20,021 bases of DNA from a virus. The position numbers and the translations under genes were made by a program. Below, piece after piece: positions 4,603 through 12,616 of this stretch (the stretch's first letter is position 1; every line of letters starts with the position of its first letter). The notes under the pieces were generated by a model. That model had not been told where the DNA came from, did no database searches, and saw only the letters and a list, made by a program, of their open reading frames with translations. The stretch spans positions 1 through 20,021 of the IMG/VR virus record IMGVR_UViG_3300044904_000145. One strand, given 5' to 3'.

Positions 4603-5055
4603 ATGACTTACAAACAATTTTTAGAGAAACTGAAAATCAATATTTCTTTTGAACATTCAATAAGAATGCAAATCGGATTTGATCCAAAAAATTCTGACGA
4701 ATGTCTGAAAGCAGTTGAAAGAAACGGCTATGCGCTTCAGTACGTGAAAGATCAATCGGAAGCGGTTTGTCTGAAAGCAGTTGAAACTGACGGCTGTGCG
4801 CTTCAGTACGTGAAAGATCAATCGGAAGCGGTTTGTCTGAAAGCAGTTGAAAGAAACGGCTGTGCGCTTCAGTACGTGAAAGATCAATCGGAAGCGGTTT
4901 GTCTGAAAGCAGTTGAAACTGACGGCTATGCGCTTCAGTACGTGAAAGATCAATCGGAAGCGGTTTGTCTGAAAGCAGTTGAAAGAAACGGCTATGCGCT
5001 TCAGTACGTGAAAGAAGAAATTTTCGAACCGGAAACAACAGAAGAAACTAAGTAA
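4603..5055 (+). CDS. DUF4116-like tandem-repeat protein
   Basis: The protein has 150 residues. After a 33-residue N-terminal region come five copies of a 22-residue unit, CLKAVERNGYALQYVKDQSE plus AV. The last copy breaks into an acidic tail (EEIFEPETTEETK). The unit matches the DUF4116 pattern (a cysteine- or valine-containing helix, xAVxxNGxALxYV, then a short linker), known from proteins of Legionella, giant viruses and some phages, where function is unknown. The helical hairpin repeats suggest a solenoid for protein binding. AAGGAG precedes the start. Copies are almost identical at DNA level, so the array was made recently or is kept uniform by recombination. Coding use is likely: the period is a multiple of three and start and stop lie outside the array. 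Confidence 0.7.
   Translation: MTYKQFLEKLKINISFEHSIRMQIGFDPKNSDECLKAVERNGYALQYVKDQSEAVCLKAVETDGCALQYVKDQSEAVCLKAVERNGCALQYVKDQSEAVCLKAVETDGYALQYVKDQSEAVCLKAVERNGYALQYVKEEIFEPETTEETK
4702..5015 (+). repeat. Five 66-bp tandem repeats (last one partial) inside the DUF4116-like gene
   Basis: Units begin at 4702, 4768, 4834, 4900 and 4966; the fifth matches for 50 bases. Differences fall at only two places. Codons 7-8 of the unit read AGA-AAC in units 1, 3 and 5 but ACT-GAC in units 2 and 4. Codon 10 reads TAT (Tyr) in units 1, 4 and 5 and TGT (Cys) in units 2 and 3. All else is identical, including silent positions. Confidence 0.95.
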
Positions 5056-5075: not shown

Positions 5076-5099
5076 CCGCCGATTAATTTCAGTCGGCGG
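5076..5099 (+). terminator. GC-rich hairpin between the repeat gene and the SymE-like region
   Basis: CCGCCGATT at 5076-5084 pairs with AGTCGGCGG at 5091-5099 through nine pairs, one of them a U-G wobble that exists only in plus-strand RNA, around a 6-nt loop. The downstream sequence (CAATTTATAAAT) has no proper T-run, so it may be a weak terminator, an attenuator or a mRNA-end stabiliser rather than a full stop. Confidence 0.5.
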
Positions 5100-5109
5100 C
5101 AATTTATAA

Positions 5110-5181
5110 ATGAGAAAGATGAGTTCAATTATGGAACACAAAAAAAAATCCTACTCGAAAAGTCGGTTATTTAATGAATAG
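5110..5181 (+). CDS. Possible 23-aa leader reading frame overlapping the SymE-like gene
   Basis: A frame from ATG 5110 (further in-frame ATGs at 5119 and 5131) to TAG 5179-5181 encodes a basic peptide ending KKKSYSKSRLFNE. It overlaps the start of the SymE-like gene by 8 nt in another frame. Its composition and length resemble the basic N-terminal extension that SymE-family proteins often carry, and a run of nine A at 5140-5148 lies inside it. It could be a coupling leader, the N-terminus of a longer SymE joined by frameshifting, or a chance frame. GAGAAAG before 5119 is the best Shine-Dalgarno candidate. Confidence 0.3.
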   Translation: MRKMSSIMEHKKKSYSKSRLFNE

Positions 5182-5308
5182 TGATTTTAATTCAAATCCA
5201 TATATCCGACTTCAAGGGAAATGGCTGAACAATATCGGGTTTAAAATCGGATCTCAATTCATTGCTGAAATTGAGAATAATAAAATCACTCTTAAAGTAA
5301 TCAATTAA
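5174..5308 (+). CDS. SymE-like small protein (AbrB-fold toxin family)
   Basis: This 44-residue protein consists almost wholly of the SymE core: YIRLQGKWLNNIGFKIGSQF, then IAEIENNKITLKVIN. The motif G-K-W-L-x-x-x-G-F-x-x-G and the closing beta strand are diagnostic of the family. In Escherichia coli SymE is an SOS-induced toxin held down by the antisense RNA SymR; relatives are common in phages and Bacteroidota. The N-terminus is shorter than in typical members, and the missing basic segment resembles the overlapping leader frame at 5110. The stop lies 6 nt before the replication gene, so both probably share one transcript. No antisense promoter was convincingly found. Family call good; toxicity inferred. 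Confidence 0.7.
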   Translation: MNSDFNSNPYIRLQGKWLNNIGFKIGSQFIAEIENNKITLKVIN

Positions 5309-5314
5309 AAGACT

Positions 5315-6301
5315 ATGGCTAAGAAAAAAGATGATCTCCCGGCAATGCCTTTTTATACCGGCGATTGGTTCAAGGCAGGTGACGTCAGATCGCTAACGGT
5401 TGAACAAAGAGGAATCTGGATTGATATGCTTTTCTTTATGTGGGAAAGTAATGAACGTGGAGTTCTTGTTGATGCTTCCGGGAAACCTTTTACAACTGAA
5501 GAACTAGGCAGGATGGTAGGAATGTCGGAAGATTTGCTTAAGCAAAACCTCAAGCAAATGGAAAGCAAAAAAATATTTTCGCTACGTGATTTGGATGGCG
5601 CAATTTTTTGCAGACGGATGATTAAAGATGCTCAAATCAGAGCCATCAGAAAAGAAGTTGGGCAAATAGGCGGAAATCAGAATAAAATCAAAAATTTGCT
5701 TAAGCAAAACGACAAGCAAACGGATAAGCAAAACACTGAAAATGAAATTGAAAATGAAACTGAAGTATATAAGGAAGAGAGTCTGAGAGAAACCAATCCT
5801 AAAGAAACAACCCTGGAACCTGTCGATGAAAGGAAATCTCAATCAGGCGGACCAACCTATGGAGCCGTAAAAGAGTTCTTTATCCAAAATAACCGATCTT
5901 CGGACGAAGCCTTAAATTTTTGGAATGAATACGAACAAAAGAAATGGCACGTAACTAATCCGGACGGCTATCCAACCCGCAGAATAAAAACCGGTCGTGA
6001 TTGGCAACTAAAAGCAGAGCAATGGATTATTAAAGCCCGCACACAGGAAAAAGACCGCGAAAAGAACAAACCTGATTTTCTCAAAAAAACCGAAAATAGA
6101 ACCTTTAGACCAGCTGAATTTAAAAAAACAATTATGTGTGCTAATGATTGTGGTAAACCTGGTATTATGAAAATGGGCGATGATTCACGCCGCATGTTTG
6201 ATGTCTGTTCGCGCAAATGCTACGAAGAAGTAAAAATTAAAAACGAAAACTCATTTACTGAGATAGGTAAACTCATAAAACAAATGGAGATAACAACATG
6301 A
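5315..6301 (+). CDS. Phage replisome-organiser/DUF1376-like winged-helix replication protein
   Basis: The protein has 328 residues. Residues about 8-110 match the phage replication-initiation pattern: LPAMPFYTGDWFKAGDVRSLTVEQRGIWIDMLFFMWES, then TTEELGRMVGMSEDLLKQNL (winged helix) and CRRMIKDAQIRA. A low-complexity Gln/Lys/Glu/Asn linker (about 125-175) follows. Then comes AVKEFFIQNN ... FWNEYEQKKWHVTNPDG ... TGRDWQLKAEQWI (184-238), also common in phage primosome proteins. The C-terminus has Cys275, Cys279, Cys298 and Cys302, a probable zinc knuckle. In known phages such proteins load or bind helicase at the origin. The zinc segment is less usual. Its stop overlaps the next start by four bases. 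Confidence 0.7.
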   Translation: MAKKKDDLPAMPFYTGDWFKAGDVRSLTVEQRGIWIDMLFFMWESNERGVLVDASGKPFTTEELGRMVGMSEDLLKQNLKQMESKKIFSLRDLDGAIFCRRMIKDAQIRAIRKEVGQIGGNQNKIKNLLKQNDKQTDKQNTENEIENETEVYKEESLRETNPKETTLEPVDERKSQSGGPTYGAVKEFFIQNNRSSDEALNFWNEYEQKKWHVTNPDGYPTRRIKTGRDWQLKAEQWIIKARTQEKDREKNKPDFLKKTENRTFRPAEFKKTIMCANDCGKPGIMKMGDDSRRMFDVCSRKCYEEVKIKNENSFTEIGKLIKQMEITT

Positions 6302-11666: not shown

Positions 11667-11957
11667 ATGACTATCCAAGAAACAATAATCGATCTTTTAC
11701 TTTCTGCGGAACCGGAAATCTTGTTCGAAAAGATCCTTTGTAATAAAGATTCCAGGGAACGGCTTATCGAAATGCTGATTGAAGCCGGTGAAATAAATAA
11801 AGGCAGTGTGAGAAATTTTATGATAAGACGCCGTTTCAATCAATTGCATATCGGTGAAGGAATCAAGGTCGAAGAGGCCTTTATAACAATTTCGAATGAA
11901 TTTGAAAGCATAACTCCGGATACTGTGAAAAATATTATCTATGCGGCGAAGAAATGA
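11667..11957 (+). CDS. Small hypothetical protein at the head of the packaging module (96 aa)
   Basis: The protein is mostly helical and charged: MTIQETIIDLLLSAEPEILFEKILC, SRERLIEMLIEAGEI, then RNFMIRRRFNQLHIGEGIKVEEAFITISNEFESITPDTVKNIIYAAKK. The last 45 residues, with RRRF and SITPDTVKNII, could be a helix-turn-helix, and the ending is like phage regulators in which a recognition helix is preceded by TPDTV. GAGG is about 10 bases before the ATG. Its stop overlaps the following ParB-fold gene (ATGA), which is followed by the terminase genes. A DNA-binding role in packaging or late control is a guess; the family is not recognised. Confidence 0.5.
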   Translation: MTIQETIIDLLLSAEPEILFEKILCNKDSRERLIEMLIEAGEINKGSVRNFMIRRRFNQLHIGEGIKVEEAFITISNEFESITPDTVKNIIYAAKK

Positions 11958-12616
11958 CGAAAAAAATAATCCCAATTACCTGCAATGGCGCCGAACTTAT
12001 TGATGTTAATTTATTTATTCCTATTCAGGGTAATCTTAAAACTCGTACACGAGAGCAGCTCTATGGACTTCGAAGTTCGATAATTAAATACGGATTCTCA
12101 TTTCCAGTATTCGTTTGGAAAGATGGAAAGGATTATTTTACTCTTGACGGTCATGGTCGGGACTTCGTAAGTAAAGAATTAGTTTCTGAAGGCTGGAGGT
12201 TCAAACAAAAAGACGGGATAGTAAATACTTCTCTTCCATGTTGTTTCATTGATGCAAAAAATAGAATTCAGGCAAAAGAAAAGTTACTCGCATTAAATTC
12301 TGAATATGGCAACATAACAAAAGAGGGATTGATTAGTTATATCCTTGAACCCGGGTTCGAACTCAAGATTGAAAATCTAAAAACATCGTTGATCATACCA
12401 AACATAAATTTAGAAGAAGTTGAACTGAATCTTTCCGGCAGCCAGATCAGATTTGATAAGATTGTTAATGAAATATGCGAGAAACTTAACTTAAAAGTTA
12501 AGGAAGTGTTCGACTATAAAATCGGGAAAGGAGATCAATTTACTCGAAAATTCAAAGGCGATAAGCTGGAGAACACTATTAAAGCAAACGATTTATTCTT
12601 TGAGATTAGAAAATAA
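11954..12616 (+). CDS. ParB-fold (ParB/sulfiredoxin-like) protein beside the terminase genes
   Basis: The protein has 220 residues. Residues about 15-80 show the ParB N-terminal layout: LIDVNLFIPIQGNLKTRTREQLYGLRSSIIKYGFSFPVFVWKDGKDYFTLDGHGRDFVSKELVSEGW. DGHGR (65-69) stands where GxRR lies in true ParB. Then comes LPCCFIDAKNRIQAKEKLLALNSEYGNITKEGL (about 94-126), matching phage ParB-like proteins often found just before terminase or with DNA methylases. The C-terminal 70 residues are an unrecognised charged domain. No methylase motifs are present. These phage proteins probably bind DNA or a nucleotide during packaging or regulation. The fold call is good; the function is open. Confidence 0.7.
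   Translation: MTKKIIPITCNGAELIDVNLFIPIQGNLKTRTREQLYGLRSSIIKYGFSFPVFVWKDGKDYFTLDGHGRDFVSKELVSEGWRFKQKDGIVNTSLPCCFIDAKNRIQAKEKLLALNSEYGNITKEGLISYILEPGFELKIENLKTSLIIPNINLEEVELNLSGSQIRFDKIVNEICEKLNLKVKEVFDYKIGKGDQFTRKFKGDKLENTIKANDLFFEIRK

Follow-up and report, generated by a model that had tools for sequence, protein, structure and literature searches.

The SymE locus and its frame break

The window, by which we mean the whole stretch of 20,021 bases analysed here, is a phage fragment with terminase, portal, head and replication genes, and it holds a small SymE-type gene divided between two reading frames. The features of the locus are as follows.

5110..5181, + strand: leader frame, 23 codons from ATG5110 and 16 from ATG5131, the predicted truncated product without a slip
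5131..5139, + strand: likeliest start, with ATG GAA CAC immediately preceding the A run and an ATG in the same register 1-2 codons before the run in six other loci
5140..5149, + strand: A9T, candidate frame-change site, read as AAA AAA AAA T.. from the ATG and as xxA AAA AAA AAT in the SymE frame
5141..5308, + strand: SymE frame from the A run, KKNPTRKVGYLMNSDFNSNPYIRLQGKWLNNIGFKIGSQFIAEIENNKITLKVIN plus stop, matching PF08845 with 37.1 bits (match 5156-5296)
5174..5176, + strand: internal ATG in the SymE frame, an annotation-type start, with no start of any kind there in the relative G055 and only ATT/ATC in G035
5315..6301, + strand: next gene, replisome-organizer-like, beginning 6 nt after the SymE stop

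A sequence-only reading of this DNA had described a leader, a run of nine A's, a SymE core in another frame and an 8-nt overlap between the two, and checking the letters confirmed all of these (ATG at 5110, A9 at exactly 5140-5148, leader stop TAG at 5179-5181, overlap at 5174-5181). The leader from ATG5110 reads MRKMSSIMEHKKKSYSKSRLFNE and has, besides ATG5131, in-frame ATGs at 5119 and 5110, while the core (ATG at 5174, stop ending at 5308, 44 amino acids) sits in the +1 frame relative to it. No other run of A or T in the window reaches nine.

The SymE frame does not begin at ATG5174 but is open from 5123 (the previous stop is at 5120-5122), and in a search of the whole record the SymE match starts upstream of this ATG, at 5156. 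Read back to the A run, the frame scores 37.1 bits against Pfam PF08845 (SymE_toxin, curated cut-off 29 bits) compared to 31.3 bits for the 44-residue core alone. By these matches the core is a truncated reading of SymE and, because the match starts upstream of ATG5174, the 8-nt overlap is incidental. The sequence-only reading had the leader supply the basic N-terminus that the core lacks, but this segment, KKNPTRKVGY, is encoded immediately after the A run in the frame of SymE itself, and not in the tail of the leader. Since SymE homology in the SymE frame reaches back almost to the run, the leader frame would supply only a start and one or two residues, and any frame change must, on this evidence, fall at A9. 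The earlier suggestion that a +1 shift joins both frames is supported in this form, with the join at A9 rather than at the overlap by ATG5174.

The product of the gene at 5315..6301 matches phrog_13246 (replisome organizer, E=4e-13) and is 36.7% identical to a 'replisome organizer' of Bacteroides phage Versailles. Upstream of the leader lies a DUF4116 gene (4603-5055) with 4.8 near-identical 66-bp (22-amino-acid) DNA repeats at 4702-5015 (94% matches), a sign of recent amplification. Between this gene and the leader, about 30 bases before ATG5131, is a strong hairpin of 9 pairs at 5076-5099 (CCGCCGAUU/AGUCGGCGG) with no poly-U tail, which might terminate the upstream transcript or shield a 5' end. 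Elsewhere in the window, a 220-amino-acid protein (11954-12616) matches relatives of about 505 amino acids (L121:16547-18052; L123:15100-16629) in two pieces; the relatives have in addition a large region, weakly matching an N6_N4 DNA methylase, that is missing in the window protein.

The same layout in related phages

Relatives were reached through terminase matches first and then by profile searches; searching viral contigs directly with only the SymE of the window gave none. Six further distinct loci were obtained (G011 (L051); G035 = G755 (L052, L117); G015 = G025 = G034 (L053, L054, L056); G036 (L055); G055 (L063); G790 (L118)), making, with the window, seven distinct loci in ten records of phages and prophages. 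G034 is an Ignavibacteriae MAG, and the carriers of the SymE with A9 are probably phages and prophages of Ignavibacteria-type bacteria. All seven loci, in 10/10 records, have an ATG, 0-2 codons, exactly A9 and a T, with SymE in the +1 frame, and the leader counterparts are 17-28 codons long in all relatives. SymE homology extends back almost to the A run, in the SymE frame, in every locus, and the shift would be confined to the stretch from the ATG to the base following A9. Relatives carrying only the short core without a leader, which had been named as evidence that would count against a joined product, are absent among the close relatives, all of which have the leader start and A9.

The relatives also bear on where translation of SymE could begin. 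In G034 a TGA in the SymE frame overlaps the start (ATGA), so that an upstream reading of SymE is impossible there. At least one relative is without any alternative start: ahead of the core, the SymE frame of G055 contains no ATG, GTG, TTG, CTG, ATT, ATC or ATA. G035 has ATT and ATC as its sole candidates, and G790 is the sole copy with upstream in-frame starts, which are located inside the preceding gene. Coupled translation had been proposed earlier, with termination of the leader at 5181 feeding re-initiation at ATG5174 to give the 44-residue core. The 8-nt overlap in the window would suit this, as would the ATGs that G034 and G790 have at the corresponding position, but with the start codons of G055 and G035 as they are it is not general, and the SymE frame is conserved upstream of ATG5174. 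We consider coupling very improbable, and ATG5174 is probably not the real SymE start.

The PF08845 cut-off is passed by the window and 5/6 relatives (G036 falls below it at 26.4 bits), and against the E. coli-type SymE equivalog NF010128, a 113-amino-acid model with a 132-bit cut-off, all seven score only 14-27.5 bits. The seven proteins thus appear to be short relatives of SymE and not the same SymE as that of E. coli. Their genes occupy the early/replication part of the phage genomes, with differing neighbours, and some close relatives have no counterpart, including G006, which is nearest for the neighbouring replisome gene (68% identity); judged by this distribution, SymE is an accessory gene in these phages.

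The nearest outgroups, from the same order, start with a plain in-frame ATG and no A run (MKTKRKVSY.. in L119, MKIKTKRVVSY.. in L120), and these N-termini align with M-x-KKNPSRxVSY, the product predicted for a slip. At G015:7506-7643, G025:32670-32810 and G034:C4:91667-91804 and 40505-40621 there is also a diverged second gene of SymE-like type that begins with a normal in-frame ATG (MKVYESS..), so plain and putatively slip-gated SymE-like genes coexist in the same phage records and MAG. A small tree of the SymE proteins (about 55 residues) is weak and does not reject a single clade for the A9 loci (p-AU 0.51), and the A9 trait may have arisen once or more often.

Several observations lie beside this set. 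In G036 (L126 / L055) the usual stop of the SymE frame is missing and the frame continues through the next small ORF, for 150 amino acids from the run, and slippage there would yield a SymE fusion. L064/G216 was left out of the count, since its A9, although in the same register, is followed by a proper in-frame ATG; in this arrangement (L125 (G216) 9531, minus strand; L064) the 3' end of an upstream A9-bearing gene is overlain by a SymE that has an in-frame ATG of its own, and slippage at A9 would fuse the upstream protein to SymE. L088 and L089, found with a DNA pattern A9..GEWL, were rejected as chance matches, the A8+ scan returning more of the same unrelated family, and the SymE genes of Flavobacterium and Dorea/Lachnospiraceae phages proved to be ordinary and in-frame.

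Selection on the SymE frame and the length of the run

Across the seven loci, dN in the SymE frame is 0.21-0.79 and dS is above 1 or saturated. Differences by codon position are 0.46/0.33/0.59 for the segment from run to core and 0.39/0.33/0.59 for the core, third positions being highest in both. The three run codons show 0 differences in 63 pairwise codon comparisons, and the chance that phage codon usage alone kept A9 in all seven is p ~6e-6, a rough figure that treats the lineages as independent. By these measures the SymE frame is under purifying selection and A9T is invariant.

Homopolymer indels are common, and a sequencing error, a recent indel or a decaying pseudogene could in principle produce a broken frame such as that in the window. 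The same break is, however, seen in seven diverged loci and ten records with SymE under purifying selection, which refutes this explanation for the family and makes it only barely credible overall. The sequence-only reading had offered the recent loss of one base; this has the wrong sign, as the frame is restored by removing one A or adding two, the conservation refutes its being recent, and no one-base difference in the run separates the related phage loci. An artefact of homopolymer bias shared by metagenomic assemblies is also unlikely, given the seven lineages, the purifying selection and the several independent assemblies. Conservation in seven diverged copies looks like deliberate control and not error.

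Phase variation, in which DNA replication slippage toggles the gene in the population between A9 (off) and A8 (on), would fit the position of the run, as homopolymers at the 5' ends of genes are classical contingency sites. The ten records nevertheless come from independent assemblies and represent seven diverged lineages, and each has exactly nine A's; no A7/A8 or in-frame form of this SymE was found when 2.9 million viral contigs were scanned for A8+ patterns and the order's 164 genomes for A7+, so we regard phase variation as improbable. Other A9 sites with the SymE-type layout were absent from the approximately 2 Mb of DNA scanned.

Runs of this length are avoided by the hosts. The coding DNA of four genomes of the order (0.9 Mb) contains 11 runs of at least nine A's compared to 87.4+-6.7 expected from synonymous-codon shuffles (n=60), an 8-fold depletion that 0/60 shuffles reached, although such shuffles do not keep dinucleotides across codons. 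Runs of at least ten A's number 0 (33 expected) and T runs of at least nine number 2 (23 expected), while runs of up to six are at expectation. Baranov et al. tied such depletion to selection against slippage (PMC1088944); the A9 depletion could also reflect selection against replication slippage, and so it also fits phase variation.

Possible agents of the frame change

Taken together, the anatomy and its conservation suggest that the SymE-type gene is broken by a conserved, functional frame-change site, most likely one of programmed transcriptional slippage, a reading to which we give a probability of roughly 0.6. That a functional frame change exists at A9 is very probable, and if it does, it is probably transcriptional. 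Ribosomes would start at the ATG one to three codons before the nine A's; messages with the templated A9 would give a dead-end peptide of 16-28 codons, and messages with one A fewer (A8) or two more (A11) would place the ATG in frame with SymE and give a protein of about 57-62 amino acids. Host RNA polymerase slipping on A9 would be the most likely agent, and SymE would form a small, fairly fixed fraction of the output. A -1 ribosomal slip or the insertion of a single A would instead bring the ribosome into the third frame, which soon reaches a stop.

The IS1447 element, whose A9T site has the same register, is the best precedent from experiment: cDNA had A8 in 9/52 clones and A10 in 8/52, with neither in 30 DNA clones, and the full protein came from the +1 class only (PMC6211511). 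Baranov et al. (2005) took the same ORF organisation with nine A's in two or more non-identical homologs as a test of functional use (PMC1088944), and here seven distinct loci share both, an A/T run of about nine or more standing at the junction of two frames as A9 in 7/7. Homopolymer slippage in E. coli is mostly insertion of one A and rarely deletion, and insertions dominate in both E. coli and Buchnera (PMC5574713). Because one added A would here lead to the closed third frame, a low yield, or the ribosome as the agent, is possible.

The main rival to polymerase slippage is ribosomal frameshifting, in which the mRNA keeps A9 and the ribosome slides +1 or -2 on AAA AAA AAA right after initiation. 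Ribosomes do slide on iterated A (PMC4363877), the run adjoins the ATG in 7/7 loci, and the conservation evidence counts equally for both agents. The register in all seven loci is +1/-2, however, and not the -1 common at A-rich slippery sites; there is no conserved downstream RNA structure (RNAalifold gave 8 weak pairs at -2.35 kcal/mol, one pair with a compensatory change), and a run length fixed at nine suits a polymerase threshold better than a ribosomal slip. We therefore hold ribosomal frameshifting to be rather unlikely.

Going further, we lean towards the view that these phage and prophage SymE genes have given up an in-frame start altogether, so that any SymE would depend on RNA polymerase slippage at the start-proximal A9, which would dose a potentially toxic DNA-binding protein through transcription error. 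In this dose-limiting role the slip would keep SymE low. An AlphaFold monomer model of the protein was not used, as its N-terminus was poor (pLDDT 47-59). Gene callers would, if slippage operates here, misannotate this SymE family, either as the 44-residue core from the internal ATG or by missing the gene.

Comparison with known systems

Conserved frameshifts are familiar in phage genes from the tail-assembly chaperones (G/GT), where a -1 ribosomal shift late in the gene gives a minor extended protein. In the phage SymE the shift would instead lie at the start, and no SymE at all would be made without it. Thermus thermophilus dnaX and Shigella mxiE resemble it in that a homopolymer run sets the products through RNA polymerase slippage (PMC1088944), but dnaX obtains a second, shorter product by slippage, mxiE depends on the insertion of one base, and neither is a phage or SymE gene.

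E. coli SymE shares the PF08845 domain, with its basic N-terminal strand RxVSY followed by PxIRLxGxWLxxxGF. It is now seen as a DNA-binding, nucleoid-condensing protein that is toxic on overproduction and whose translation is blocked by the antisense RNA SymR (PMC11894785, PMC4147584). It has 113 amino acids, an ordinary start and control by SymR and LexA repression (PMC4147584, PMC11894785), whereas the phage SymE is about 60 amino acids long and has no in-frame start. Unlike E. coli symE/symR, the phage locus gave no clear sign of an antisense RNA: a search at the SymE start found two weak promoter-like sites on the minus strand (a total of 3 sites compared to 1.2 expected, by a sigma-70 consensus that may not apply), and an Rfam search at the locus gave no match. 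Frameshifting may here take the place of antisense control.

In the IS1447 (IS3-family) transposase, as here, nine A's are followed by a T, the zero frame ends soon and the product needs an mRNA one A shorter (PMC6211511). The IS1447 site differs in lying at the end of the long OrfA with a reported stem-loop; that of the phage SymE is 1-3 codons after the start of an approximately 60-amino-acid gene, with no conserved stem. Slippage already has examples in dnaX, among insertion sequences and in a small number of secretion genes. Its use to dose a potentially toxic DNA-binding protein is, as far as we searched, without a description for SymE or for toxin-antitoxin type genes, the literature searched holding no link between either and slippage, which is not proof that none exists. 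If our reading is true, polymerase infidelity would serve here as the dose limiter for a potentially harmful DNA-binding protein and would be the sole route to a phage SymE.
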